A DNA stretch of 64,000 bases from Gemmatimonadota bacterium. GTDB taxonomy: Bacteria > Gemmatimonadota > Gemmatimonadetes > Palauibacterales > KS3-K002. This document shows positions 14,068 through 28,379 of this stretch, piece by piece (position 1 is the first letter of the stretch; every line of letters starts with the position of its first letter). The notes beneath the pieces were generated by a model. It had not been told where the DNA came from. It searched no databases and saw only the letters and a program-made list of their open reading frames with translations. The stretch is from the NCBI GenBank assembly GCA_020344015.1, contig CP070812.1, forward strand, positions 2,869,545-2,933,544, in the 5' to 3' direction. The translations under genes were made by a program, and so were the position numbers.

Positions 14068-14298
14068 TTACGTTTGGGGGTCTGGAATTCTGTGGGCGTT
14101 TAAGATTGTTGGCTTAGTGGTGATTGCCCCCTCTTCGTAGAGTGGCAACAATTCGTCTCTCAGGTCTCTGCGCTGGTAAAAGCTTATCGCGGTGGCGCAG
14201 ATCCCCCAAATGCTTCCCAGCGTGAAAGCGCACCCTCCGCCTATTATCAGAGCCGTTTTGCCTAGTATCAGCAGTCCTTGGATCATATCGGAGTCCAT
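14068..14298 (-). CDS. Small membrane protein at the end of the respiratory operon
   Basis: A 76-residue protein starting at ATG 14298, 38 bases after the stop of the upstream tetraheme cytochrome gene. Residues about 6-40 contain one long or two short hydrophobic helices (G-L-L-I-L-G-K-T-A-L-I-I-G-G-G and F-T-L-G-S-I-W-G-I-C-A); the tail is charged (FYQRRDLRDELLPLYEEGAI). I do not recognise the family. Position suggests a small accessory subunit of the complex, as many respiratory enzymes have, but that is inferred from context only. The Shine-Dalgarno is weak (GAGAG). Confidence 0.55.
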   Translation of the reverse strand: MDSDMIQGLLILGKTALIIGGGCAFTLGSIWGICATAISFYQRRDLRDELLPLYEEGAITTKPTILNAHRIPDPQT

Positions 14299-14336
14299 TC
14301 TGACTCTCACAGTCTGATTGTTTCAGAAACTTCTCG

Positions 14337-15554
14337 TCAGTTACGCCGCGGCGCCTGTAAGAACGCTGCGATGTCCGCCATCTCCTCAGCGCTGAGGACT
14401 GGCCACTCGACTGCAAGGCTGTCTCCAGCCTCGGTGGACGCTACGTGATTCCACATAGCTGAGATGACCTGCGCCGGCGACATCATCCCCGTTCTCTCGG
14501 CCAGGTTGCTGGCCGCGCTCGCCCCCTGGCCGTCGAGCGAGTGGCAGGTGAGGCATCCGCTGCTGCCCAACAATCGCTGTCCTGCCCGGACGTCGCCGGA
14601 TTCCGCGAAGTAACGGACGGAGTGCAAGTAAGCCACGAGGTCGGCCATCTCTCCGGCCCCGAGCTGTGGGACTTGTATCCCGCGTGTCTGCATCTGGGCG
14701 GTCATGTTGGGCGCCTTATTCCACATGGCTGCGGCAAACTGGGTCAGGTCCCAACTGACCTCACGCCGAGCGAGATCCGGTGCCCCGCTCCCGCCGACGC
14801 CTCGAACGCTGTGGCAGCCTGCACAACCTCTTTCCGCGAATGTGACGCGACCCTCGTTGGCATTCCCCGGCAATACGTACAGAGGCCCGGCCAGTGACGG
14901 CGGCGAGATCGACTCGAGGTAGGCGATTAGGTCTGTGAGCTCCGAACCGGAGAAGGTCGGGCGCTCTATTCCCTTCTTCTCCATCATCGCCTGCATCCCG
15001 GGCCCGTGATTCCACATCGCTGCCGCGACCAGGATCGGTGAGCCGTACTGGCCGAGGTGGTCGAGGCTGGGTCCCGCCACGCCGCCGTGCACACCCACCT
15101 GGTGACACACTACGCACTTCTTTTCGTCGAACAGACGTTCTCCAGCTCCTGAATCGCCGGGCGGGTCGAAGTAGTCGAGGGTGAACAGAAACGCTACCAG
15201 GTCTCCCGCTTCGCGATCACTCAACCGCGGGCGCTCGATGCCCAGCTCTTGCATTCGCTCTTCCATGCCCGGGAGGTGGTTCCACATCGTGGCGGTTAAG
15301 TCGTAGAGCGATCGGCGCTCACCGCTGTGCCCCAGGTCCGGCCCGAGCTTGCCGCCCAACCCGTTCACCGAGTGACACTTGACGCAACCTTTCGACCCGA
15401 AGACTTGAGAGCCAGCCATGGGGTTCTGCGTCAGCCCCCAGCGTTCCTGGGCGTGGACCGGCTGCGAAGCCCACAGAATCAGTACAGCCACGGCCAGGCT
15501 CGGGGCTATGTCGGCTCTTCCGCACAGGCTGATTGACGGGTGCTTGCCGATCAT
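14337..15554 (-). CDS. Tetraheme class-I cytochrome c (four tandem mono-haem domains)
   Basis: A 405-residue exported protein starting at ATG 15554 behind a perfect GGAGG; an upstream in-frame start at 15590 would put 12 extra residues before the signal. After a signal peptide ending near PVHAQ, four domains of about 95 residues each carry one CxxCH (CVKCH, CVVCH, CAGCH, CLTCH). Each domain also has a conserved M-W-N-H/K-x-x segment followed by G-I-x-x-P and D-L-x-A-Y/F-L, the likely region of the distal Met ligand. It is the second of two such proteins in tandem (43 bases apart) and probably carries electrons between the NrfD-containing complex and a periplasmic partner. Confidence 0.9.
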   Translation of the reverse strand: MIGKHPSISLCGRADIAPSLAVAVLILWASQPVHAQERWGLTQNPMAGSQVFGSKGCVKCHSVNGLGGKLGPDLGHSGERRSLYDLTATMWNHLPGMEERMQELGIERPRLSDREAGDLVAFLFTLDYFDPPGDSGAGERLFDEKKCVVCHQVGVHGGVAGPSLDHLGQYGSPILVAAAMWNHGPGMQAMMEKKGIERPTFSGSELTDLIAYLESISPPSLAGPLYVLPGNANEGRVTFAERGCAGCHSVRGVGGSGAPDLARREVSWDLTQFAAAMWNKAPNMTAQMQTRGIQVPQLGAGEMADLVAYLHSVRYFAESGDVRAGQRLLGSSGCLTCHSLDGQGASAASNLAERTGMMSPAQVISAMWNHVASTEAGDSLAVEWPVLSAEEMADIAAFLQAPRRN

Positions 15555-15596
15555 GGTATTCCTCCAGGTCCAGCAGTCTGCGCCCAGCAAACCGTG

Positions 15597-16814
15597 TCAC
15601 TTTCCGGCAGCCATATCACTCAGGTATACAGCGAGGTCTCGCATTTCTGCCCCTTCGAAGCGTGGCCAGTCCGCCTGCTCGAGCTGAATGACAGCGTACA
15701 TGGCAGGTGCGTGATTCCACATCGCTGTAGCAAGCCTTATCGGCGCCAGTATGGCGTCCGACTGAGAAAGATCGGGCCCGATCGAAGCGCCACCGTCGAC
15801 TGCGTGACAGCTGGCGCAGCCTTTCTGTGCAAATACCACCTCACCTACGCGTGCGTCGCCTCCAGTATCGTAGAATCGCAAATAGTAGAGGAACGCGATG
15901 ACGTCCGCCATCTCTTTGCCCGCGAACCGGGGAAAGGCTATCCCGCGAGCCCGCATGGCCGTCGCCATCTGCGACGAGTGATTCCATAGCGTCCCGGCGA
16001 TCTCCGAGACACGGAGCTGCGAAGTCGCACTGCGGAGATCCGGTCCGAACCGCGTTCCGCCGCCGTTGGGTCCGTGGCAGCTTGAGCATCCTTTTCGCAA
16101 GTACAAACCGCGACCGGTATTGGGGTCAGGTGGCTGGAGGAAGATGACATCACGGCTCTGAAGGTTCGAAACCTCCCGGATGTAGGCTTGGATATCAGCC
16201 ATCTCGCGCCCCCTGAACGAGGGAATCGGCCCGCGCTCCGCAGCCTGCCGCGCCTGCATACCAGAGCCGTGGTTCCACATGCCGGTGGCCAGCATCAGCG
16301 GCGCTATGTATTGGGCGTACCCGTCGAGGGGCAGGGCGGTTCGGCCACCCTCACCGCCGACCGCATGACATTCAACACAGCGCATCTCGCGGAACCAGCG
16401 CTCGCCGAGGACCGGATCCCCCGGCTCGTCGAACAGCTTCACGTAATAGATGTAGCTGATGATGTCAGCGAGCTCTTCCTCGCTGAAGGTCGGCCACTGA
16501 AAACCTTTGACCTGCACGGTTTGAATCATCTGGGGCGTGTGGTTCCAGAACATGCCGGCGAGCTGCTGCAAGCTGCGGCCCGCACCGACCAGGGCGAAAT
16601 CGGGACCGAGCGTCCCGCCGTTCCCCCAGATGGCATGACAACGATCACAACCACGCGCGACGAAGATCCGGCGGCCGGCGATGGGATCTCCGGGGAACGA
16701 TTGGTCGGATTGGGCGTGCACTGTGCCCGCGCCCGACGCCCAGATACAGCATAGCACGGCGAGTACGGCGAACCTCAAGCTCCCTTGATTCGGTGTCTGT
16801 AGAGCGGTCAGCAT
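15597..16814 (-). CDS. Tetraheme class-I cytochrome c, paralogue of the following gene
   Basis: A 405-residue exported protein. The ATG at 16814 is preceded by GAGAGGA at good spacing; a GTG at 16832 is the alternative. The signal peptide ends near TVHAQ. Four CxxCH motifs (CDRCH, CVECH, CSSCH, CASCH) sit in four similar domains, each with an M-(F/W)-W-N-H or M-W-N-H motif and a G-F/I-x-x-P-x-F segment. It follows the NrfD gene by 24 bases on the same strand. The two paralogues together supply eight haems and look like a diverged duplication. Confidence 0.9.
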   Translation of the reverse strand: MLTALQTPNQGSLRFAVLAVLCCIWASGAGTVHAQSDQSFPGDPIAGRRIFVARGCDRCHAIWGNGGTLGPDFALVGAGRSLQQLAGMFWNHTPQMIQTVQVKGFQWPTFSEEELADIISYIYYVKLFDEPGDPVLGERWFREMRCVECHAVGGEGGRTALPLDGYAQYIAPLMLATGMWNHGSGMQARQAAERGPIPSFRGREMADIQAYIREVSNLQSRDVIFLQPPDPNTGRGLYLRKGCSSCHGPNGGGTRFGPDLRSATSQLRVSEIAGTLWNHSSQMATAMRARGIAFPRFAGKEMADVIAFLYYLRFYDTGGDARVGEVVFAQKGCASCHAVDGGASIGPDLSQSDAILAPIRLATAMWNHAPAMYAVIQLEQADWPRFEGAEMRDLAVYLSDMAAGK

Positions 16815-16838
16815 CGCATTTCCTCTCGGCACGGCAAG

Positions 16839-18185
16839 CTAGGCGCTTTCCGGCAAGTACTCAGCCACCCGGTCGGCGACCTCCCGCACAGAGTGTTCTC
16901 GTCCTTCCTTGATCTCCCAGATCGAGACAATCGGGACGAACTTGGTGGCAAGCATGTACAGTAGGGTGAAGCCCGAGAACGTGGCTGCCATGATCGACAG
17001 CTCGACCCATGAGGGTAGGTATTGACCGATCGACTCGATCTCCCAACGCGGGTTCACCGACGTCGGAACCACTATGTTGAACCGTTCGAGCCACATGCCG
17101 ATCATCACAGCAATTCCAGCGATCAGCGTGCCCCGGGGCGTCCTCATCGAGCGTCGCGACATAAGGGAGAGCGGTATGATGAAGCAGCCCAAAACCATCG
17201 TCCAAAAGGGTATGGCGAACGGCCCCGTCAGCTTTGCCCAAAAGGCGCGCATTTCCCCGGGCTCTCCGCCGTAGAATGCGGTCAGGTACTCAGCGAAGGT
17301 GAAGTAGAACCACAGCAAGCTGAATAAGAGGAGCAGGCGTCCCAGGTAATCGAAGTGGATGTCCTTGAAGTACTGTTGCAGGCCGAACGCTCGCCGCAGC
17401 ACCACCATGGCGACGAGGATGGCGGCGATACCGGAGTAGATGGCGCCCATAACGAAGTAGGGCCCGAATATGGTGCTGTGCCACATAGGTCGTAGCGTCA
17501 TAGCGAAGATCCAGCCGATCACGGTGTGGACAGAAACCGCGATCGGGATCACGATGATCGAGAGAACTCCGATAACCCTCTCGAGCCGTGCGCGCTGCGC
17601 CGGCGTATCGCGGTAGCCGGCAGCAAGGAAGCGGTAAAGGCGCGGCGCCTTAATACCCGAGTCGCGGATGATTGCGAGGTCGGGCAGCATGGGGACGTAG
17701 AGATAGATCGTACATGAGATGAAATAGAGGCCGATGCTCGTAACGTCCCAGAGCAACGGCGAACGCAGTTGTGCGTTAAAGATGACGTTCAGCACTCGGT
17801 CGGGGCGGCCCAGGTCGATGATCGGTTGGATGGCGCCGAAGCCGATGACCAGAACCGTTATCAATTCTGCGGAACGAGTGATCGAGCGCCGCCACTCCGC
17901 CTTGCTGACTCGGAGGATGGCGGAGATCAGCGTGCCGGCGTGGCTGATCCCGATAAAGAAGACGAAGCAGATGATGTAGATGCCCCAATAGCTGGGACGA
18001 TTGAGACCTGTACGACCGAGGCCGTAAGTGACTTGCAGGTAATAGGCGAACATTCCCCATAGCGTGACGGCCGCCAGCAAGCCCGCAACGATGTAAAAGC
18101 TGCGCGAGGTCTCGACTAACGGCCGCAGAAGGATCTGCTCGTCGTTCGACATGCGAGCCAGTTTCTCTCTTACGGCTTGTCGCAT
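16839..18185 (-). CDS. NrfD/ActC-like polytopic quinone-interacting membrane subunit
   Basis: A 448-residue integral membrane protein with about ten hydrophobic helices. The ATG at 18185 lies 2 bases after the stop of the ferredoxin gene; the longer open frame only overlaps that gene. The segment G-I-S-H-A-G-T-L-I-S-A-I-L with A-E-W-R-R-S-I-T-R-S-A-E, and S-V-H-T-V-I-G-W, resemble ActC of alternative complex III and QrcD more than the shorter PsrC/NrfD proteins. Such subunits exchange electrons with menaquinone or ubiquinone and may take part in proton translocation. Gene order (cytochrome, Mo-protein, ferredoxin, NrfD) supports one membrane complex. Confidence 0.92.
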   Translation of the reverse strand: MRQAVREKLARMSNDEQILLRPLVETSRSFYIVAGLLAAVTLWGMFAYYLQVTYGLGRTGLNRPSYWGIYIICFVFFIGISHAGTLISAILRVSKAEWRRSITRSAELITVLVIGFGAIQPIIDLGRPDRVLNVIFNAQLRSPLLWDVTSIGLYFISCTIYLYVPMLPDLAIIRDSGIKAPRLYRFLAAGYRDTPAQRARLERVIGVLSIIVIPIAVSVHTVIGWIFAMTLRPMWHSTIFGPYFVMGAIYSGIAAILVAMVVLRRAFGLQQYFKDIHFDYLGRLLLLFSLLWFYFTFAEYLTAFYGGEPGEMRAFWAKLTGPFAIPFWTMVLGCFIIPLSLMSRRSMRTPRGTLIAGIAVMIGMWLERFNIVVPTSVNPRWEIESIGQYLPSWVELSIMAATFSGFTLLYMLATKFVPIVSIWEIKEGREHSVREVADRVAEYLPESA

Positions 18186-18187
18186 TC

Positions 18188-18886
18188 TCAGTCCCTCGGC
18201 CGCAGATAATAAACCTTCGGTTGTGTTCCTAGGTCCTCCATCAGACGTAACACCCGCGGATCGTCTTTGAGGGTGTGTACCGCGTGACTCGGGTTGTCCA
18301 GATCGCCGAAGATGATGGCGTTGGTGGGGCAGACATCGACACAAGCGGGCTGATAGTCCTCCTCACGCAGTTCGCGCCCCTCGGCACGCGCATCTTCCCG
18401 GGCCTTTTGTAGTCGGTGGTGGCAGAACGTGCACTTCTCGATGACGCCGGCCGGCCGAACTGACACGTCGGGATTGAGGTGTTGGCGCTCGGCCTCCGAC
18501 CACTCCGGTCCATACCAATTGAAATACTTCACCATGTAGGGGCAGGCGTTGGCACAATAGCGGCAGCCGATGCAGCGCGCGTAGATCTGACCGACGATGC
18601 CTTCGTCATCGATGTAGGTCGCCTGGACCGGACAGACCCTGATGCAGGGTGGATTGTCACAGTGCATGCAAGGGCGAGGGTAGAAGTGCATCGTCGTATC
18701 TGGAAACTCCCCTTCCACGTGCGCCATAACCTTCATCCAGCTGCTGGCGCGCCCCATGTCCGCCTGCTCGACCGAGACTGCGGCGACGTTGTTCTCACTC
18801 TTACACGCCACCTCACATGCCGCACAGCCGGTGCAGCGGTCCAGGTCGATCACCATTCCCCAGCGTGCCATGTTCTGATCCGTCAC
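18188..18886 (-). CDS. Four-cluster 4Fe-4S ferredoxin subunit (PsrB/QrcC/ActB2-like)
   Basis: A 232-residue protein with four cysteine groups typical of the electron-wire subunit of complex iron-sulfur molybdoenzymes: C-T-G-C-A-A-C-E-V-A-C (Cys18, 21, 24, 28), C-M-H-C-D-N-P-P-C-I-R-V-C-P, C-I-G-C-R-Y-C-A-N-A-C-P and C-T-F-C-H-H with a late C-V-D-V-C-P-T-N-A. It overlaps the molybdopterin gene stop by four bases (ATGA), a sign of translational coupling, and it has no signal peptide of its own, so it is probably exported as a passenger of the Tat-targeted large subunit. It would link the Mo site or the cytochromes to the quinone site of the NrfD subunit. Confidence 0.93.
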   Translation of the reverse strand: MTDQNMARWGMVIDLDRCTGCAACEVACKSENNVAAVSVEQADMGRASSWMKVMAHVEGEFPDTTMHFYPRPCMHCDNPPCIRVCPVQATYIDDEGIVGQIYARCIGCRYCANACPYMVKYFNWYGPEWSEAERQHLNPDVSVRPAGVIEKCTFCHHRLQKAREDARAEGRELREEDYQPACVDVCPTNAIIFGDLDNPSHAVHTLKDDPRVLRLMEDLGTQPKVYYLRPRD

Positions 18887-21243
18887 GCCTGTTCGAGGCG
18901 TACAAAGGTGGAAGACCAGCTCGGCAATCCTGTAAGCGGGTCGTTCGTGCTATCGAGCAACCGGAGTGGATTCGCCGGCTCTCCGTCTGGCTGGCGCAGC
19001 CCGTAAGGCGCGCAGACGGTCTCCGGCGCTGTCCCTGGGAATACTTTGAGGCGGGCTCGATAACGGCCTCGTGGCGCGACTACCCAGACGAGCGTGTCAT
19101 CGCTGAGCCCCAGCGCGTGAGCCGTTTCTGGGGCCACTTCGACCCAGGGGTGCCAGAGGACATCGGGGAATATTCCCGGTTGCTCGGCGAGCCAGCGCTC
19201 GAGGCTCAGGGTACCCGAGGCGAGAGTGGACACGCGATAAGGTATGAGTCGCAAGCTGAACTCGGTTGAATCCGCCGCGGTCTGCGTCGCGACGTCGAGA
19301 TAGGGCCTGAGTTCCGATCCTTCCTCTGCAAGAGCGCTCAACAGCTTCGCCGGCATCAGCTCGATCCGGCCGCTGTCTGTTTGGGCTATTCGGTAGGGGT
19401 CGGTATGATCGTAGAAGAGATCCGTCCAGCCGCCGCGCTCGACCAATTCGTCCCAAAAAGCCTCGAAGTCGGTGTGTTCCGGCAGCCACCAGCCGCGCTC
19501 CTCCATCTGACGGTGGTGCTCACGCTCGAACTGACCACCCAACGTCATGCCGCGGCGGACGGCAAAGAGGCCCCGAGTCCTTTCCTTGAGCAGACCCTCG
19601 AAGCTTTCGTATGGCAGGCTCGCTGCCACGCTACCGCCCAACCTACGTGCGAGGTCAAGGACGACATCTCCTGTGTGCATCGCGCCCTCGTGCGGCTCGA
19701 CCAGTGGCCGGGCCAACCCCCAAACCGGATATGGGTAGGAGGTGGGCGTTGGCGCATCCTGCCAACGCTCGTACGGCAGCAAGTCAGGCAGAACCACGTC
19801 CGCATAGCGTGCGGTGTCATCGAGGAACGGCGAGAAGCTGACGACGAACGGGATCTTCTCGAGCGCCTCGTGCCACACCGAGGGGTCTGTCGACGAAGCA
19901 ATAGGATTGGCGTAATAGAGAAGCAGCGCTTCGATCGGGGCTTCGGCCCCTGCTACGGCCGCGGCGAAGCGAAGCGCCTCGCCGCCGCTGCCGAACACCG
20001 GCCGCTGGGTGCCTATCGGCCCGCGACCCACGCCGGCGCGTGCCGTCTCATCCAACACAGGCGATGTCAGCGGTCCGACTGGGGCGTCGTCCGCGAAGAG
20101 CACTCCGCCTGGGCGATTGACGCTTCCCATCAGCACGTTGATGCTATGGACGGCCAGGCCGGCTAGCAGCCCATTCGGGGCGAACGCGACGTCCGTTCCG
20201 CAAACGGCTACCGCCGGGCGGTTTGCCGCGACGGCCCTGGCCAGCGCCGTGATCCGCGCCACCGGTACGCCCGTGATCGCTGAGACCTCCTCGGTTCGGT
20301 AGTTGCGCATCACCAGCGATCGGTAGCCCTCCCTAGGCTGGCCCTGCGCATCGACGAAATCCTCGAAGCCGGCTACGTGCCGCGCCACGAAGTCGGCATC
20401 GATGAGCTCGTCCCTTATCAGCACATAGGCGATGCCGAGAGCGAGAACGGCGTGCGTTCCCGGCCGCACACCGACCCACTCGTGGGCGCGCGAGGCTGTG
20501 CGGGAGAATCGTGTGTCAATCTGGACGAAGCGCGGACCGCTCTCTTCTTCAGCATCGGGGTTTGCAAAGGCCACGAACGCCTGAAGCGGTGACCACCACG
20601 ACTCGAACAGGGGAGCACCAAATGAGAGCACGAGGCGGGCCCGGTCGAGATCGTAGCTGGGCCGACGATCGATCCCGTGCATCACCGCCATTACCGCCTC
20701 TGTGCCGTCCTCGTACTCATCGGCCACGTAGTTGGAGGATCCGAAGTTGTGCAAAAACTGACGCCAGAGATCCTGCATCGTGCCGGCGCTGTAACCCGCC
20801 AGGAGCGCCAGCCCCTCGGGTCGGCCCGCTGCCCTGAGACTCCCGAGCTGCTCGGCGATCCGCTCCAACGCTTGCTCGCGCGTGACCGTCTCCCACTGGC
20901 CGCTCCCGCGAGGACCGCTGCGTACTAGCGGCCCGGCAAGCCGTTCCGGATGGTAGAGCAATTGCACGCCGGCGACTCCGCGCGGACAGAGGCCGCCGCG
21001 GCTCAGCGGATGGAGGGGGTTGCCGTTGATCCTGATTAAGCGTCCGTCCACCAGGCGGCCGCGGATCCCGCAGCGCGACGGGCAAATCAGACAGGTAGAG
21101 TTGCGTCGCTCTTCGATTCCCGGCGCCCACCCCACGTCTAGGGACTCGTCCGACTCCCAAAAGACGTCCTGCGCCCCTTTCAGGGCTACCGTCGCTGCAG
21201 CGGCGCCCATCGTCCACAGGAACTCGCGCCGACTCGGGCTCAT
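18883..21243 (-). CDS. Tat-exported molybdopterin oxidoreductase large subunit (QrcB/ActB1-like)
   Basis: A 786-residue protein of the DMSO-reductase superfamily. The N-terminus S-R-R-E-F-L-W followed by a hydrophobic Ala-rich stretch is a twin-arginine signal. Cys51, Cys54, Cys58 and Cys86 (C-x2-C-x3-C-x27-C) form the FS0 4Fe-4S site. The pterin-binding core and the C-terminal molydopterin-dinucleotide domain (about 660-786) are present. At the usual metal-ligand region the sequence reads G-S-S-N-Y-V-A-D-E-Y-E-D-G (168-180): no Cys, Sec or Ser is evident, and Asp179 or Asp175 would be the nearest acidic ligand. It could therefore be an Asp-ligated enzyme, or a cofactor-less structural subunit as in QrcB and ActB. 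Substrate unknown. Start ATG 21243 lies 16 bases after the upstream cytochrome. Confidence 0.9.
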   Translation of the reverse strand: MSPSRREFLWTMGAAAATVALKGAQDVFWESDESLDVGWAPGIEERRNSTCLICPSRCGIRGRLVDGRLIRINGNPLHPLSRGGLCPRGVAGVQLLYHPERLAGPLVRSGPRGSGQWETVTREQALERIAEQLGSLRAAGRPEGLALLAGYSAGTMQDLWRQFLHNFGSSNYVADEYEDGTEAVMAVMHGIDRRPSYDLDRARLVLSFGAPLFESWWSPLQAFVAFANPDAEEESGPRFVQIDTRFSRTASRAHEWVGVRPGTHAVLALGIAYVLIRDELIDADFVARHVAGFEDFVDAQGQPREGYRSLVMRNYRTEEVSAITGVPVARITALARAVAANRPAVAVCGTDVAFAPNGLLAGLAVHSINVLMGSVNRPGGVLFADDAPVGPLTSPVLDETARAGVGRGPIGTQRPVFGSGGEALRFAAAVAGAEAPIEALLLYYANPIASSTDPSVWHEALEKIPFVVSFSPFLDDTARYADVVLPDLLPYERWQDAPTPTSYPYPVWGLARPLVEPHEGAMHTGDVVLDLARRLGGSVAASLPYESFEGLLKERTRGLFAVRRGMTLGGQFEREHHRQMEERGWWLPEHTDFEAFWDELVERGGWTDLFYDHTDPYRIAQTDSGRIELMPAKLLSALAEEGSELRPYLDVATQTAADSTEFSLRLIPYRVSTLASGTLSLERWLAEQPGIFPDVLWHPWVEVAPETAHALGLSDDTLVWVVAPRGRYRARLKVFPGTAPETVCAPYGLRQPDGEPANPLRLLDSTNDPLTGLPSWSSTFVRLEQA

Positions 21244-21259
21244 TCGTTCTCTCCTCGCA

Positions 21260-21826
21260 CTAGCGGTGGCACGCGTTGCAGTCGAGGGTTTGTCCCTGCT
21301 CGCGGTGGCAGTCCATACAAAAATCCATGTCGATCGTCACCAGCGGACGAGCAGGTGGGCGTACAGTTTGGGCAATCGCGCCGTGGCAGTTCTCACACTC
21401 CAGTTCGGCGATCCCGACATGGCGGCGGTGCGTGTAGAACACGTGCGGTTCGAGCCGGAACAGCTTCTTGAACGTTAGAGGGTCGCCTTCGGCGAGCAGT
21501 GTCGTGACCCGAGTTGCCTCGGCCGATGTGCCTTGCGCGGCCTGGTGGCACATCGTGCAGGTCTGCGCATCCGGTAGCCCGGCATGCGCTCCCTTCGTCA
21601 CGTGCACATGACAGAACTCACAATTGAGGCCGAGCTCCTCGGTATGCTTGCGATGGTTGAACGCGACCGGTTGCGGAACGGACGGTCTGGCCGTGACAAG
21701 CACCGTAATGACGATCCCCGCGACCAGGATCACGCCGAAGCTCCCGGAGACCCACCGCACGCGTACGAAACCGCCGCGATCAGCGGCAGTACCACCCATC
21801 CTGGCTATCTCGAGTTTGGTGTTCAC
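21260..21826 (-). CDS. Membrane-anchored pentaheme cytochrome c (ActA-like, c7/c3-type)
   Basis: A 188-residue protein starting at GTG 21826. One N-terminal helix (about 24-46) anchors it, then five CxxCH motifs follow (CEFCH, CTMCH, CENCH, CMDCH, CNACH) with extra histidines in F-N-H-R-K-H and Y-T-H-R-R-H for bis-His ligation. The pattern F-N-H-x-K-H ... C-x-x-C-H ... A-G-L/I-P ... C-x-x-C-H ... H-R-R-H-V ... M-D/E-x-C-M/L-D-C-H-R closely recalls ActA, the pentaheme subunit of alternative complex III. It is the first gene of a seven-gene minus-strand operon. The AAGGA ribosome-binding site, 8 bases before the GTG, lies inside the 3' arm of a perfect hairpin (21834-21866), suggesting translational control. 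An internal ATG (codon 10) is a less supported alternative. Confidence 0.9.
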   Translation of the reverse strand: MNTKLEIARMGGTAADRGGFVRVRWVSGSFGVILVAGIVITVLVTARPSVPQPVAFNHRKHTEELGLNCEFCHVHVTKGAHAGLPDAQTCTMCHQAAQGTSAEATRVTTLLAEGDPLTFKKLFRLEPHVFYTHRRHVGIAELECENCHGAIAQTVRPPARPLVTIDMDFCMDCHREQGQTLDCNACHR

Positions 21827-21946: not shown

Positions 21947-24346
21947 CTAAGGGCCCGGGTCCGGATAGTTGATCGCGTTGAATAGCGCCAGGTATAGATC
22001 CAAAATGTCGTTCACGTCCGTGACCAGGCTCCCCATCGCCGTGCCGGGCTGGCCGAACTTCACCTTGTGTTGCACCTCGTACGGCTTCGCACGCAGGAAG
22101 CTACCGACAGTGAAGCTGCCGTCGACCAGGAAAGCCGTTCCGTCAGCGCCGTGACATACGGCGCAGTTGGCCGCGTAGATCGCATCGCCGTTGGAAACGT
22201 TACCGCCCGCGCCGATGTTGGAGTAGGTGATCGAGCCCGTCGGGTAGGTGCCGGTTGTGGTGTAGTCGTAGAGGAGATCGGTATCGATCGCCTCCTCCTT
22301 CAGGAACCTCACCAGATCCCAGACCTGCTCCTCCGTCATGATTTCGCTCAGGTCCGGCATCTGGTCGCCGACCGTCGAATTCGTCGCCGGATCGTACGTG
22401 GAGAGGTCCGCGCTCACCGAGCGCCGGCCGGTGGATGTCCACAGCGCGTCGAAGAGTTCCTGTTGCGACATAGCTTCCGTCGCCGCCTTCAGGTCGAGCG
22501 AGGCCACATTAGGCCGCGTCGTGCTCGGCGCTCGTCCGATGTACGACGCCGCGTTGCCCAGCCGGTCCCACGCGTGGCACTGCTTGCAGCGGAAGAAGTT
22601 CGAGAAGTTGTTGAAGGTCGCCAGGTTGGGATCGCTCTGATCCCAGCCCGTCTCCGGAGTCCAGAACTTGTCGTACATCGTGCCGCCGTTGATGCCGTCC
22701 GCTGCCCCAAAGTTCGGATTCGGATAGTTGGACTCGTTCGTTAGTGCGGCGTACAGATCCAGAACGTCACTAACGTCGGTCACCAGGCTCCCCATCGCCG
22801 TGCCGGGCTGGCCGAACTTGACCTTGTGCTGCACCTCGTACGGCTTGGCTCGAAGGAAGCTGCCAACGCTGAAGCTGCCGTCCACGACGATGCCGGTACC
22901 GTCGGCGCCGTGGCAGGCGGCGCAGTTGGCGGCGTAGATCGCATCGCCGCTGGCCGCGTTACCGCCCGCGCCGATATTCGAGTAGGTGATCGAGCCGGTC
23001 GGGTACGTGCCGGTTGTGGTGTAGTCGTAGAGGAGATCGGTGTCGATCGCTTCCTCCTTCAGGAACTTCACCAGATCCCAGACCTGCTCCTCCGTCATGA
23101 TCTCACTAAGGTCCGGCATCTGATCGCCGACCGTGGAATTCGTCGCCGGATCGTACGTCGAGAGATCGGCGGTCACCGAACGCCGGCCCGTGGACGTCCA
23201 TAGGGCATCGAACAGCTCCTGTTCCGACATCGCCTCCGTCGCCGCCTTCAGGTTCAGAGAGGCCACGTTGGGCCGCGTCGTGCTCGGCGCTCGTCCGATG
23301 TACGACGCCGCGTTGCCCAGCCGGTCCCAGGCATGGCACTGCTTGCAGCGGAAGAAGTTCGGGAAGTCGTTGAAAGTCTGGAGGTTCGGATCGTTTTGGT
23401 TCCAGCCCGTCTCCGGAGTCCAGAACTTGTCGTACATCGTGCCGCCGTTGATGCCATCCGATGCCTCGAAGGCCGGATCCGGATAGTTGGTCTCGTTCGT
23501 CAGCGCAGCATAGAGGTCTAGTATGTTGTTGATATCGGTCACCAGGCTCCCCATGGCCGTGCCTGGCTGGCCGAACTTCACCTTGTGCTGCACCTCGTAC
23601 GGCTTCGCACGCAGGAAGCTTCCGATCGTGAATTCGCCATCCACCAGGAAGGCCCTCCCGTCAGCGCCGTGGCAGGCGGCGCAGTTATCGGCATAGATCT
23701 CATCGCCGTTGGTCGCGTTACCGCCCGCACCGATGTTCGAGTAGGTGATCGAGCCGGTCGGGTACGTGCCGGTCGTGGTGTAGTCGTAGAGGAGATCCGT
23801 GTCGTTCGCCTCTTCCTTCAGGAACTTCACCAGATCCCAGACCTGCGCCTCCGTCATGATATCACTCAGGTCCGGCATCTGGTCGCCGACCGTAGGGTTG
23901 CTGACCGGATCGTACGTCGACAGATCCGCGGTCACCAAACGCCGGTCGGCGGTGGGGCTCCACAGAGCGTCGAACAGCTCCTGCGGCGTCATGCCGGCCG
24001 TGGCCTGCTTCAGGTCGAGCGACGATACGTTCGGCCGCGTCGTCCTCGGCGCGCGGCCAATGTACGAAGCCGCGGTTCCCAGCCGGTCCCAGGCGTGGCA
24101 CTGCTTGCAGCGGAAAAAGTCAGCAAAGTCACTAAACGTCTGCAGGTTCGGATCGCTCTGGTTCCAGCCCGTCTCCGGAGTCCAGAACTTGTCGTACATC
24201 GTGCCGCCGTTGATCCCGTCGGCATTGGTGAACTCGGGTGGGTCTTCGGGCACACCGGTCGTCTCCTCGTCGTCGCATGCGGCCGTGGCGACCAGGGTGA
24301 GTGCAACGAACGCCAGGGCCAGGGTCCTGAAGCGGGACGAATCCAC
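21947..24346 (-). CDS. Hexaheme lipoprotein cytochrome made of three tandem di-haem repeats
   Basis: A 799-residue protein. The GTG at 24346 has a perfect AAGGAGG eight bases upstream and gives a compact lipoprotein signal (DSSRFRTLALAFVALTLVA then T-A-A-C); longer starts at ATG 24394 or 24430 put acidic residues before the signal and lie too near the predicted promoter. After D-D-E-E-T-T-G, three units of about 253 residues each begin D-G-I-N-G-G-T-M-Y-D-K-F-W and contain one CKQCH and one CA(A/V)CH, six haem sites in all. Each unit ends with a V-Q-H-K-V-K-F-G-Q-P-G-T-A-M-G segment, a likely Met ligand. An outer-surface or periplasm-facing electron conduit is plausible; no known family name can be given. 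Confidence 0.9.
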   Translation of the reverse strand: MDSSRFRTLALAFVALTLVATAACDDEETTGVPEDPPEFTNADGINGGTMYDKFWTPETGWNQSDPNLQTFSDFADFFRCKQCHAWDRLGTAASYIGRAPRTTRPNVSSLDLKQATAGMTPQELFDALWSPTADRRLVTADLSTYDPVSNPTVGDQMPDLSDIMTEAQVWDLVKFLKEEANDTDLLYDYTTTGTYPTGSITYSNIGAGGNATNGDEIYADNCAACHGADGRAFLVDGEFTIGSFLRAKPYEVQHKVKFGQPGTAMGSLVTDINNILDLYAALTNETNYPDPAFEASDGINGGTMYDKFWTPETGWNQNDPNLQTFNDFPNFFRCKQCHAWDRLGNAASYIGRAPSTTRPNVASLNLKAATEAMSEQELFDALWTSTGRRSVTADLSTYDPATNSTVGDQMPDLSEIMTEEQVWDLVKFLKEEAIDTDLLYDYTTTGTYPTGSITYSNIGAGGNAASGDAIYAANCAACHGADGTGIVVDGSFSVGSFLRAKPYEVQHKVKFGQPGTAMGSLVTDVSDVLDLYAALTNESNYPNPNFGAADGINGGTMYDKFWTPETGWDQSDPNLATFNNFSNFFRCKQCHAWDRLGNAASYIGRAPSTTRPNVASLDLKAATEAMSQQELFDALWTSTGRRSVSADLSTYDPATNSTVGDQMPDLSEIMTEEQVWDLVRFLKEEAIDTDLLYDYTTTGTYPTGSITYSNIGAGGNVSNGDAIYAANCAVCHGADGTAFLVDGSFTVGSFLRAKPYEVQHKVKFGQPGTAMGSLVTDVNDILDLYLALFNAINYPDPGP
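21950..24220 (-). repeat. Three in-frame tandem repeats of about 750-762 bp
   Basis: Units run from 24220, 23458 and 22699 down to 21950, with period 762 then 759 bases. The DNA itself is highly similar between units (for example the stretch encoding M-Y-D-K-F-W is the same in all three), pointing to fairly recent internal duplication or gene conversion. Confidence 0.9.
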
Positions 24347-24411
24347 GGCGTCCACCTCCTTGAGGTCAAGAGAACAGCGGTCGCGGCTGAACATGGCTCC
24401 TCCTTCCAGTG

Positions 24412-24427
24412 GGCGATCGATGTGCCA
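24412..24427 (-). promoter_or_regulatory. Sigma-54 promoter candidate for the hexaheme cytochrome
   Basis: On the minus strand the sequence TGGCACATCGATCGCC has a perfect -24 element (TGGCACA) and a -12 element TCGCC with the GC correctly spaced, 10 of 12 consensus positions. Predicted transcription start is near 24400, which leaves a leader of about 55 bases before the GTG at 24346 and argues against the longer open-frame starts. Confidence 0.55.
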
Positions 24428-24526
24428 CAAATCAGACGTCGGCTGAGCGACGTGGCTGGGGCCTGCTTATCCACTTTCTCTAAGAGGCAGATCTCATACC
24501 AGCCGCCCGAAACCATGAACTCATTG

Positions 24527-24770: not shown

Positions 24771-25145
24771 ATGGGGATGAAGATCGTTTTGGTGGACGAC
24801 GATCGCTTGGTCTTGCAGAGCGTATTGGCTGCACTCGAGGCGAGCGGGTACCAGGTGTGGGCGACCGAGTCAACGGAGGAGGCGGTGGAACTGACCCGGG
24901 AGATGGAGCCCGATGTGGTGGTGACCGACTACCGAATGCCGCTGATGGACGGGGTGTCGCTGCTCGAGCGTGTGAGAGAGCTGCCGGTGGTTCCGCTGAT
25001 GCTGGTTTACAGTGCGACGCCGCCGCCGAGAGAGCTGTTGTCTGAGCGAATGAGCGAGGTGAGCTGGGTAGCCAAGACGGCTGGGCACGGTGCGCTTCTC
25101 GGGAAGCTCACGGATCTGCTGGAGGGTGGCGTTGACGCGAGTTGA
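24771..25145 (+). CDS. Stand-alone response-regulator receiver
   Basis: A 124-residue single receiver domain: acidic cluster D-D-D at 9-11, phospho-acceptor Asp53 in V-V-T-D-Y-R-M-P, switch Ser in V-Y-S-A-T and conserved Lys in W-V-A-K-T. No output domain follows. The ATG at 24771 (or 24777) sits after GGGAAGG; the longer open frame from 24555 has no domain sense. It overlaps the kinase gene by 14 bases. It is probably a phosphate sink or intermediate in the phosphorelay of the two downstream genes. Confidence 0.85.
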   Translation: MGMKIVLVDDDRLVLQSVLAALEASGYQVWATESTEEAVELTREMEPDVVVTDYRMPLMDGVSLLERVRELPVVPLMLVYSATPPPRELLSERMSEVSWVAKTAGHGALLGKLTDLLEGGVDAS

Positions 25146-26988
25146 TTTCTGGCGGTCCCTCTGGCGGAACACGCCGCTGCGTGGCGGGTTGGGTCGCCGG
25201 ATCCTGCTGTGGTTTCTCGTGCTCTCGCTGGTACCGCTGCTTGTCTCGAATAGTGTTGGCTACGGAGTTAGTCGGCGGATCATTGAGAGCCAGCTAGAGC
25301 GCTACTTGCGGGCGCTGGCGGAGGTCCAAGCGCAGCAAGTAGCCACAGAGATCGAGCGCCACCAACTGTTCCTAAACGGGATTACGGTCAGCAGTCGTCC
25401 TCTCTTTCGGGCAATTCCCGCCGCGGCGGCAGCCGTGCAAGCTGGTCGGATACAGGAACCGCCGGTCACGACTCTCGGGGCGCATCTCGATCACGAACTC
25501 AAGGAGCTCAGGACGCTGACCGAGCTCTTCGTCCTTGACACGACAGGAACGGTGATTGCGGCGAGCGAGGGAAACCGGCTCGGGCAGGATTGGTCGCGCA
25601 GCAAGCTCTTTCGCAGAGGCCGAGCCGAGCACTTCTTCGAGGCGGATTGGGACGATCGGGGTGGGAGCGTGGTGCCTCTGTATCGGCTGGCGGTATCGAT
25701 CCGCGACGAGAGGGGTGAGGAAAAGGGCGTGCTGGGGGGCAGCGTGGGCTTCGAGGCATTGCAGTCGTTTCTGCGCCATCCGGAGCATCCGGTCATAGAC
25801 GTGCACGCCTTCATTGTCGATCATCTGGGCCTCCCGGTTTTCATCTCGCATCCCCACATCCCGGTTGACTATCGGCAGCCTTTCCCTTCGCCACTAATCG
25901 GCCAGCCGCCTGGCTCAGTGGCCCGCTACGTGAACTACGAGGGCGTCGATGTAGTCGGCACTTCCATGGCCGTATCCGGCGTTCCCTGGCTGTACATCTC
26001 GGAGGTTTCTGTGGCGAGTGCTCTCGGCCAACTACGTGGTCTCGCCCTACTGGCCGCTGGGCTGGAGAGCGTATTCGCCCTGCTACTGGTCGCAGTGGTG
26101 TGGATGGTAGCCCGGTCGATCGTAGCTCCGCTGCGGCGCCTGGTCGTAGCGGCGGAGCGCATTCGCGAGGGTGATCTGGATGTTGAAGTTGGGATCGAGC
26201 GAGACGATGAGCTGGGCGACCTCGGGCGGACCTTCAATCAGATGTCCAGCGAGCTTAGGTCGTCGGTGCTCGAGATCCAGGAGCTTCACGAGAAAGAGAT
26301 GCGACGGGCGGCACAGCTCGCGTCCGTCGGCGAGCTGGCCTCCGGGATAGCACACGAGATCAAAAACCCGCTCGTGGGTGTGGCGAGCGGGGTCGACTTG
26401 TTGTCAAGACGAGTCGGGGAGGATGCGAAATCGGTAGCCCTGCTGGACCAGATGCATTCGCAGATTCTACGTATCGAGTCGGCCATACAAGACTTGCTCA
26501 GCTATGCCAGTCCCAAAGAACCGCTACTTGCCTGGACCGACCCCAAGCAGCTCGTCGACAAGATTGTCGCCCTCGTGCGTTCACAGGCCGACGCGGCAGG
26601 AGTGCGTATCGAGGAGCAACACGCCGAGGCGCTACCAATGATCCGAGTCGATCCGGAGCTGCTAACCCAAGCTCTGGTCAACCTGGCCCTGAACGCCATC
26701 CAGGCCATGGAGCCAGGCGGGGTGCTTCGTATTTCCGTCGCGATGATTGACAGCGATGTGGGCATCTCGATCTCTGATACGGGAAAGGGGATCACGCCCG
26801 ACGAGATGGAGCGGATCTACAGACCGTTTTACACCACCAAGCACCAGGGCACAGGGCTCGGCCTGGCGATAACGCGGGCAATCGTTGAGCGCCACGGCGG
26901 CCATATCAGGGTCGAGAGCGATCTCGGCGAAGGTGCTACGTTCACGCTCGTCATTCCAGCGACGCCGCAGGAGGCGCTGGTACGATGA
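25132..26988 (+). CDS. CACHE-type sensor histidine kinase
   Basis: A 618-residue kinase. The likely start is TTG 25132, placed five bases after GGAGGG and overlapping the receiver gene stop; a longer frame from 25090 lacks a ribosome site. TM1 at about 20-42, an extracytoplasmic region of roughly 260 residues with double-CACHE character (small-molecule sensing), TM2 at about 300-330, HAMP, HisKA with phospho-acceptor His408 in G-I-A-H-E-I-K-N-P-L, and an ATPase domain (N-L-A-L-N-A-I-Q-A-M, D-T-G-K-G-I, G-T-G-L-G-L-A-I). Its stop overlaps the next ATG (ATGA), so kinase and NtrC regulator are translationally coupled. Confidence 0.92.
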   Translation: MTRVDFWRSLWRNTPLRGGLGRRILLWFLVLSLVPLLVSNSVGYGVSRRIIESQLERYLRALAEVQAQQVATEIERHQLFLNGITVSSRPLFRAIPAAAAAVQAGRIQEPPVTTLGAHLDHELKELRTLTELFVLDTTGTVIAASEGNRLGQDWSRSKLFRRGRAEHFFEADWDDRGGSVVPLYRLAVSIRDERGEEKGVLGGSVGFEALQSFLRHPEHPVIDVHAFIVDHLGLPVFISHPHIPVDYRQPFPSPLIGQPPGSVARYVNYEGVDVVGTSMAVSGVPWLYISEVSVASALGQLRGLALLAAGLESVFALLLVAVVWMVARSIVAPLRRLVVAAERIREGDLDVEVGIERDDELGDLGRTFNQMSSELRSSVLEIQELHEKEMRRAAQLASVGELASGIAHEIKNPLVGVASGVDLLSRRVGEDAKSVALLDQMHSQILRIESAIQDLLSYASPKEPLLAWTDPKQLVDKIVALVRSQADAAGVRIEEQHAEALPMIRVDPELLTQALVNLALNAIQAMEPGGVLRISVAMIDSDVGISISDTGKGITPDEMERIYRPFYTTKHQGTGLGLAITRAIVERHGGHIRVESDLGEGATFTLVIPATPQEALVR

Positions 26989-28379
26989 GCACTCGAGCTG
27001 TTATCGCCGTCGTCGACGACGAGGAGCTGTTTCGGACCTGGCTGAGCGAGCACCTCGGTGCGGCGGGATACACGGTAGTGGAGGCGGCGACGGGCAGCGA
27101 AGCATTGCGTCTCGTGGCAGAGGAGAGCCCGGGGCTGATGCTGCTCGATCTGCGGCTCCCCGATGCTGACGGCCTCGAGATGGTCACTCAGCTTCACGAA
27201 ATCGATCGTGACCTGGTCGTCGTGATCGTGACCGCATATGGAGAGGTGCAGACAGCGGTCAGGGCGGTGAAGGCGGGTGCCTACCATTTCCTCGAGAAGC
27301 CTATCGATCTCGACGATCTGCTGATCACTATAGAGAAAGGCTTGGAAACTCAGAGTCTCCGTCGGGAGATCGCGGTGCTGCGCGAACAGCACCGCTGGCA
27401 GTTTGCGAACGTCGAGTTTGTAGGCCGCTCGCTCGCCGTGCGTCAGCTCGCGGAGAAGCTGGAAAAGGTGGCCCGCACGGAGTCGGCCACGGTGCTGCTT
27501 CAGGGTGAAAGTGGGACCGGCAAGGATCTCGTCGCTCGCGCGATCCATGCCCACAGCAGCCGCAAGGATAAACCTTTCCTCGAGATCAACTGCACCACGC
27601 TGCCCGAACAACTCGTGGAAGCGGAACTGTTTGGCCACGAGCGAGGTGCTTTCACGGACGCGCGCGAGCGCAAGAAGGGCCTGGCTGAGCTTGCCGATGG
27701 AGGCACGCTGTTATTGGATGAGATCGGCGACATGCCGCTCGGCGCCCAGGCCAAGTTGTTGCGCTTCCTCGAGGACTCGAGGTTCAAGCGATTGGGCGGC
27801 ACGACCGATATCCCGGTCAACGTGCGGGTGATAGCCGCCACGAACCAGAACCTTGATAGGGCGATCGGGGAAGGGAAGTTCCGAAGCGACCTCTACTACC
27901 GGCTGAAAGTCGTCGACCTATTCATCCCTCCTCTGCGCGAAAGGTCTGAGGACTGTGCGCCGCTGGCGCTCTATTTCATTGAGCGTCTGGCTCGAGACCT
28001 CAAACGCGAGGCACCGACGATAACTCCGGAAGCGTTGGGCGTTCTGGAGGCCTATTCCTGGCCGGGGAACATCCGCGAGCTTCGCAACGTGCTCGAGCGG
28101 GCGCTCATCTTGGAAGACACGCAGGAGATTCGACCGGAGCACCTGCCGATAGAGATTCGCGGCTTTGCCCGTCCGGTCGACGGAGGGGACGACATCGTCC
28201 AACTCCCGGCGGATGGATTTCGCATGGAGGATGTCGAGCGTAGCGCTATCGAGCAGGCTCTCACGCGGACGGAGGGCAATGTGGCAGGTGCGGCGCGCCT
28301 CCTGGGACTCAGTCGCGATACTCTCCGCTATCGGATGAAGAAGTACGAGCTCGCCAACTCACACTGGCGCTCGAGATAG
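26985..28379 (+). CDS. NtrC-family response regulator with variant GAFTDA loop
   Basis: A 464-residue regulator: receiver with Asp55 in L-L-D-L-R-L-P, AAA+ domain with Walker A G-E-S-G-T-G-K, Walker B L-L-D-E-I-G-D and P-G-N-I-R-E-L, and a C-terminal Fis-type helix-turn-helix (N-V-A-G-A-A-R-L-L-G-L-S-R). The sigma-54-contact loop reads G-A-F-T-D-A (221-226) where GAFTGA is usual; variants of this kind occur in a minority of enhancer-binding proteins. Third gene of the operon divergent from the cytochromes, so it is the likely activator of the hexaheme promoter at 24412-24427. Confidence 0.93.
   Translation: MSTRAVIAVVDDEELFRTWLSEHLGAAGYTVVEAATGSEALRLVAEESPGLMLLDLRLPDADGLEMVTQLHEIDRDLVVVIVTAYGEVQTAVRAVKAGAYHFLEKPIDLDDLLITIEKGLETQSLRREIAVLREQHRWQFANVEFVGRSLAVRQLAEKLEKVARTESATVLLQGESGTGKDLVARAIHAHSSRKDKPFLEINCTTLPEQLVEAELFGHERGAFTDARERKKGLAELADGGTLLLDEIGDMPLGAQAKLLRFLEDSRFKRLGGTTDIPVNVRVIAATNQNLDRAIGEGKFRSDLYYRLKVVDLFIPPLRERSEDCAPLALYFIERLARDLKREAPTITPEALGVLEAYSWPGNIRELRNVLERALILEDTQEIRPEHLPIEIRGFARPVDGGDDIVQLPADGFRMEDVERSAIEQALTRTEGNVAGAARLLGLSRDTLRYRMKKYELANSHWRSR

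Follow-up and report, generated by a model that had tools for sequence, protein, structure and literature searches.

The operon and its genes

The window, the stretch of 64,000 nucleotides of contig CP070812.1 that was analysed, lies in a genome of 4.8 Mb on a single contig. The closest named records are Gemmatimonadota MAGs, with NrfD matching CP070815.1 at 97%. Positions 14068–21826 hold seven minus-strand open reading frames, all present at the coordinates listed below. They overlap by 4 bp or are separated by gaps of 2–26 bp, extending to ∼42 bp with later starts, in keeping with the tight packing (overlaps, or gaps under 45 bases) described in an earlier note on this DNA. A recount of CxxCH motifs also returns its total of 5 + 4 + 4 = 13 haems for the pentaheme and two tetraheme cytochromes. 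Chance packing is excluded because the five-gene order recurs across phyla. The genes of the operon, and those that adjoin it, are as follows.

21260..21826, minus: pentaheme cytochrome c, anchored in the membrane by its N terminus, ActA/QrcA-like, core; 5 CxxCH; Cytochrome_C7 (Pfam)
18883..21243, minus: Mo/W-bisPGD-like large subunit, ActB1/QrcB-like, core; Pfam Molybdopterin/Molybdop_Fe4S4/Molydop_binding; twin-arginine start
18188..18886, minus: four-cluster ferredoxin, QrcC/ActB2-like, core; Fer4; 16 Cys, corresponding to four [4Fe-4S]
16839..18185, minus: NrfD/ActC-like predicted quinol-binding membrane subunit, core; PF03916 at 130 bits; 448 aa
15597..16814, minus: tetraheme class-I cytochrome A with Sec-type signal peptide, core; four CxxCH...WNHxPxM; Cytochrom_C (Pfam)
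14337..15554, minus: tetraheme class-I cytochrome B, lineage-specific second copy; repeat 4 without Met
14068..14298, minus: 76-aa membrane protein with a single helix, lineage-specific; without a match in Pfam or NCBIfam
21947..24430, minus: six-haem lipoprotein-like cytochrome, three dihaem repeats, upstream, not core; 827 aa, 6 CxxCH
24777..25145, plus: divergent receiver-domain protein; Response_reg
25090..26988, plus: divergent sensor kinase, dCache-HAMP-HisKA-HATPase by Pfam domains; beside the operon in Gemmatimonadota relatives
26985..28379, plus: divergent NtrC-type sigma-54 response regulator; beside the operon in several relatives

The likely start codon of NrfD is the ATG at 18185, rather than the start of the 501-aa ORF; the former is the first ATG past the stop codon of the FeS gene, and the latter falls within that gene. 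The six-haem gene, outside the range of the earlier note, lies 121 bp upstream on the same strand and has a lipobox-like N-terminus. It comprises three repeats of ∼759 bp that are 83–89% identical; its sole counterpart, in locus L056, has two repeats and four haems, so that repeat number differs between near relatives. The sensor kinase and NtrC-type regulator pair (24777–28379) flanks the operon, an arrangement common to several relatives. A scan for sigma-54 promoters gave no strong −24/−12 site 5′ of the operon, and weak matches (8–9/11) in the relatives.

A conserved core of five genes

How general is this operon? An NrfD alignment was scanned against ∼85,000 species genomes, giving at least 475 relatives, from which the best 80 loci were retrieved. 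The core gene set defined by these best 80 comprises the pentaheme cytochrome, the Mo-like subunit, the four-cluster FeS protein, NrfD and a tetraheme cytochrome. All 80 come from MAGs, and this best-scoring part of the family already covers at least 16 named phyla, plus Aminicenantes. The earlier note had staked its reading in advance on the tetraheme genes being conserved with the core, and among the best 80 of at least 475 relatives a tetraheme gene is present in the cluster at 48/48 loci having enough flanking sequence on both sides. In 27 of these informative loci the order is pentaheme–Mo–FeS–NrfD–tetraheme, in 7 two tetraheme genes follow NrfD, and 14 have other orders; at least two tetraheme genes occur in 12/48. 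The evolutionary distances of NrfD and the tetraheme protein are correlated over 58 loci (Mantel r 0.76, 0/2000 permutations), to which shared species history contributes.

The recurrence of all seven genes was thus upheld in part. The five-gene core recurs, with one tetraheme of the pair as part of the conserved unit, whereas the second copy and the 76-aa protein are each restricted to particular lineages. Together with the six-haem gene, these two are confined in their present form to close relatives: direct counterparts of tetraheme B are found in L036/L057, L037 and L056, and the 76-aa protein, for which Pfam and NCBIfam searches returned no match, is seen only in L036/L057 and L056. Among 298 genomes of the phylum Gemmatimonadota, 11 (including that of the window) have the large subunit, counted where identity was at least ∼40% along the greater part of the protein or of a fragment at a contig end.

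Relationship to alternative complex III and Qrc

Among the described systems nearest to the operon is alternative complex III (ACIII, ActABCDEF; structures PDB 6f0k, 6btm, 6lod and 8k9e). The best PDB matches of the pentaheme protein are to ActA of ACIII, and those of the FeS protein to the C-terminal part of ActB. The best solved relative of NrfD is ActC (6f0k_C, 228 bits; 276 bits by profile search), and the solved structures closest in sequence to the large subunit are ArrA and PsrA. Scores with the NCBIfam models all fall below cut-off (QrcA 80.8/180, QrcB 292/440, QrcC 310/400 and QrcD 34/570). The first four genes had been likened to both Qrc and ACIII; this is borne out for the first three, which are Qrc-like at the sub-threshold level, whereas NrfD is ActC-like and not QrcD-like.

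In the NrfD tree the operon family groups with ActC and a set of four-gene relatives, far from QrcD; its monophyly relative to ACIII is weak there (support 26), and in the FeS tree the family encloses both ActB2 and the four-gene set. The tree of concatenated NrfD and FeS sequences has a 100/100 branch dividing the family from ACIII. NrfD therefore stands outside the characterised clades, as the earlier note had anticipated, separated from ActC by this branch and remote from QrcD. With Qrc as outgroup the concatenated tree roots inside the operon family (93/95), on an outgroup branch of about nine changes per column that leaves the polarity unsettled.

ACIII and the present operon have in common a pentaheme ActA-like protein, a Mo-like B1, an FeS B2, an ActC-type NrfD and, as a further haem protein, a class-I cytochrome c. 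The differences are nevertheless consistent. B1 and B2 are fused in ActB but are separate genes here, and ActD and ActF are part of ACIII but not of the family loci. In place of the mono-haem ActE there is a tetraheme protein with four His/Met class-I haem domains. An ActD homologue is absent from the family loci and was found solely in the four-gene relatives; no separate ActF was seen in the family loci, where ActF-like matches are to the one NrfD of each locus (plus an extra NrfD in L133). The earlier note was thus right that these genes are missing, ActE being replaced by the tetraheme. The extra gene (L133:270-1661), from a Desulfobacterales MAG, is a second ActC-like NrfD upstream of a family operon, and scores 369 bits against that of the window.

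The genome of the window also holds a separate ACIII locus (L051) with ActA, fused ActB, ActC, ActD, ActE and ActF. In Gemmatimonadota there are in addition ActABCD-like clusters (L047–L049) that, like the present operon, have separate A, B1, B2 and C genes, with NrfD 44–48% identical to that of the window. They differ in that an ActD-like gene follows, and that His139, Asp253 and the CIGT motif are as in ACIII. Neither these three loci nor L051 has a tetraheme gene. The clusters L047, L048 and L049 may be intermediates between the operon family and ACIII.

With Qrc the operon shares the four-gene A-B-C-D order, QrcB and QrcC as best NCBIfam models, and an aspartate at the quinone site. It differs in having five haems rather than the six of QrcA, an NrfD that is not QrcD-like, and the extra tetraheme. 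With ArrAB and PsrABC it shares the large-subunit fold and FS0 site and an FeS subunit with four [4Fe-4S] clusters, but it has no conserved Mo ligand, has cytochrome subunits, and contains another type of NrfD. On this comparison of sequences, the five-gene operon is a marker of a broadly distributed, uncharacterised relative of ACIII, placed as its sister.

The predicted quinone site and proton path

The functional residues of ActC listed in PMC8076601 were traced through an alignment of 86 NrfD sequences. In ActC numbering Ser164 and Asp169 are kept in 86/86; the family also retains the Arg395 gate and the N-side half-channel of ACIII. His139 is replaced by Asp (86/86), Asp253 by Val/Ile (86/86) and Tyr323 by Thr (86/86), while Glu338 varies. 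ActC and the four-gene relatives retain His139 and Asp253. The Asp at the ActC-His139 position is common to the family and QrcD. In the numbering of the window ORF the predicted quinone-site residues are Asp 177, Ser 195 and Asp 200. The retention of ActC-type proton-path residues suggests that energy could be coupled without ActF.

The iron–sulphur and large subunits

The FeS subunit has 16 cysteines, sufficient for four [4Fe-4S] clusters, all of which are retained across 81 relatives apart from a single Ser at one position. In the ActB2 sequences compared, and in L047–L049, the second cysteine of the CIGC motif is Thr, giving the CIGT motif; in ACIII this motif belongs to the single [3Fe-4S] cluster, which is next to the quinone site.

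The large subunit begins with an RRxFLW twin-arginine sequence. An AlphaFold model based on 63 sequences (pLDDT 87.1, pTM 0.88) superseded an earlier nine-sequence model that was poor (pLDDT 64). The best fold match in the PDB is ArrA (6cz7, TM 0.80), with PsrA at 0.71, and the profile matches ArrA at 446 bits. The subunit has both the full DMSO-reductase fold and the FS0 [4Fe-4S] site, traits of the CISM Psr/Arr/Ttr enzymes; its FS0 cysteines are kept in 62/62, 62/62, 62/62 and 63/63 sequences. FS0 was dropped as a marker separating the family from ACIII, the fused ActB of the window genome also having four FS0 cysteines. At the position where PsrA and ArrA have the ligating Cys there is no conserved Cys, Ser or Asp among 63 sequences, and residues 172–184 are also variable. 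Asp179 had been considered as a Mo ligand; invariant in nine sequences, it is not so in 63 and was discarded. The Lys/Arg between FS0 and the pterin (residue 88) is kept in 38/63.

Cytochromes and neighbouring genes

Relatives of the pentaheme protein all have five CxxCH motifs (68/68). The tetraheme protein consists of four class-I domains, each with CxxCH...WNHxPxM, and in 89 sequences the Met is kept at all four positions; tetraheme B of the window has lost that of domain 4. The motif pair implies that these would be high-potential His/Met haems, suited to take electrons from menaquinol.

A third tetraheme gene, 64% identical to tetraheme B, lies ∼33–50 kb before the window (L054, G000:C1:2820000-2837000). 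It adjoins genes for a Rieske protein and cytochrome b, beyond which come genes for NrfD, FeS, cytochromes with 8, 21 and 9 haems, and another cytochrome b. Rieske/cytochrome b and NrfD complexes thus seem to draw on the same kind of tetraheme exit module. At G000:C1:4680470-4681010 (L170, L171) there are pieces of yet another tetraheme gene; they contain an in-frame TGA and are probably remnants of a decayed copy.

Recurrent neighbours of the operon are Rieske (15 loci) and cytochrome b (15) genes, multihaem cytochromes of the c554, c3/c7 and NapC types, and NtrC/kinase pairs; no oxidase genes are among the recurrent neighbour clusters identified. In L084, L087, L088, L091 and L104 the operon is followed, in conserved order, by genes for a cNMP-binding protein, a GltD-like FAD/FeS oxidoreductase, a split cytochrome b, a Rieske protein and a five-haem cytochrome. 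Two genes for haem-copper oxidase subunit I and one nos_propeller gene (NosZ-type) are present in the genome of the window, whose match to NrfA-type nitrite reductase is sub-threshold, with none above cut-off.

An MtrB/PioB porin cluster lies beside the operon in five loci. Within the Gemmatimonadota, MtrB/PioB genes occur in 4/11 operon-bearing genomes and in 21/287 others (Fisher p 0.009), and in three of those four they are on the same contig as the operon. The porin is associated with the operon in some members of the phylum but is not found in the window genome, and was rejected as a general partner.

DISCUSSION

From the observed gene content, conservation, residue patterns and trees we infer how the complex assembles, the direction of its electrons, which cofactors are occupied and what the acceptors may be. 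The product of the five core genes is probably a menaquinol:cytochrome c oxidoreductase, sister to ACIII, that is anchored in the membrane and faces the periplasm; the tetraheme cytochrome would be its exit and the Mo-like subunit a scaffold. The site of menaquinol binding and oxidation would be a pocket on the P side of NrfD, formed by Asp177, Ser195 and Asp200. The closest [4Fe-4S] cluster of the ferredoxin would take up the electrons, which would then run along the pentaheme wire and into the tetraheme class-I cytochrome, nine haems in all. This path is proposed on the basis of the His/Met haems, the ActC-type quinone and proton-path residues, and the geometry of ACIII, where FeS1 is ∼11 Å from haem I and ActE sits on ActA (PMC5928083). 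Replacing the mono-haem ActE, the tetraheme would form a putative exit to periplasmic acceptors, and these probably differ by lineage, being multihaem cytochromes and in some genomes porin–cytochrome conduits. The Mo-like subunit would hold the FS0 [4Fe-4S] cluster, most likely with no catalytic Mo. What the FeS branch towards the large subunit does in ACIII has been described as elusive (PMC5928083); here, to judge from the conserved FS0, that branch is predicted to be extended.

Could the operon instead encode a simple subtype of ACIII, having a four-haem ActE, having lost ActD and ActF, and still feeding oxygen reductases? The ActABC homology is in accord with this, and such a cluster has been called ACIII-like with a four-haem ActE (PMC9386147). 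Yet the ligand sets of the quinone site and FeS subunit differ consistently, the recurrent neighbours do not include oxidases, and with L051 in the same genome this would not be its sole ACIII-type complex, so that we regard the subtype as rather unlikely. A more far-reaching possibility places ACIII as a derived offshoot of an older, five-subunit and mostly anaerobic complex. The present family would then form a class of its own among quinol dehydrogenases, in which the wire branches: alongside the haems, five conserved Fe–S clusters would lead into a Mo-free large subunit that serves as a second exit or store. The idea comes from the Qrc-rooted tree, with its root inside the family, and from the nesting of ActB2 in the FeS tree; the outgroup branch is very long, however, and this reading is improbable.

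The direction of electron flow is not fixed by sequence, because Qrc uses a related module for quinone reduction and the Asp of QrcD is common to the family. The complex might operate the other way round, like Qrc, as a cytochrome c:menaquinone reductase, taking periplasmic or extracellular electrons to the quinone pool. Its first three subunits score best with QrcA–C among the NCBIfam models, and the multihaem and porin neighbours could equally deliver electrons inwards. Against this, NrfD is ActC-like, the tetraheme has His/Met class-I domains and not low-potential bis-His haems, and QrcD exists as a separate gene in some of the same genomes (L136 in G299, L137 in G306), making reversal quite unlikely. 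An active molybdoenzyme would require Mo-bisPGD without a protein ligand, as in arsenite oxidase, converting a small substrate while the haems provide a further route for electrons. Its best arguments are the complete ArrA-like fold, the invariant FS0 cysteines and the Tat-type start. They are countered by the variability at and around the position of the PsrA/ArrA Cys ligand, by the partial conservation of the Lys/Arg, and by the description of Qrc and ACIII, the nearest systems in gene content, as Mo-free (PMC6303296). Such an enzyme is improbable, and a molybdoenzyme reaction by the Mo-like subunit seems unlikely. The earlier note had offered a distinct molybdoenzyme or a quinol:cytochrome oxidoreductase: a distinct oxidoreductase related to ACIII and Qrc is what emerges, while the lack of a conserved Mo ligand casts doubt on the molybdoenzyme label. 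Even for the menaquinol oxidoreductase that we favour, with invariant FS0 cysteines yet no Mo ligand, a scaffold role leaves part of the large subunit unaccounted for.

Cluster 4 of the MBNT15 bacterium SHF-111, reported as ActABCD with an ActE-like protein of four haems and grouped with ACIII (PMC9386147), is very probably of the same kind, as compared by its description alone. It was described in one genome, with no cross-phylum comparison, and ActD was claimed there whereas we find none. A survey of NrfD complexes (PMC8076601) includes none with a tetraheme of the present kind, and no survey or biochemistry of the complex was found in the openly accessible literature searched.

If the proposal is correct, the complex would be a widespread addition to the short list of those that oxidise quinol, in lineages of sediment and groundwater that only metagenomes have revealed, where the routes from menaquinol to periplasmic and extracellular acceptors are largely uncharted. 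As a natural relative of ACIII with neither ActD nor ActF and with an altered quinone-site residue, it can be used to test if a single NrfD module is enough to couple energy, and its conserved Fe–S branch can test the purpose of the branch into the Mo-like subunit. The diagnostic gene set should also prevent misannotation of these operons as ACIII, Qrc or a molybdoenzyme.
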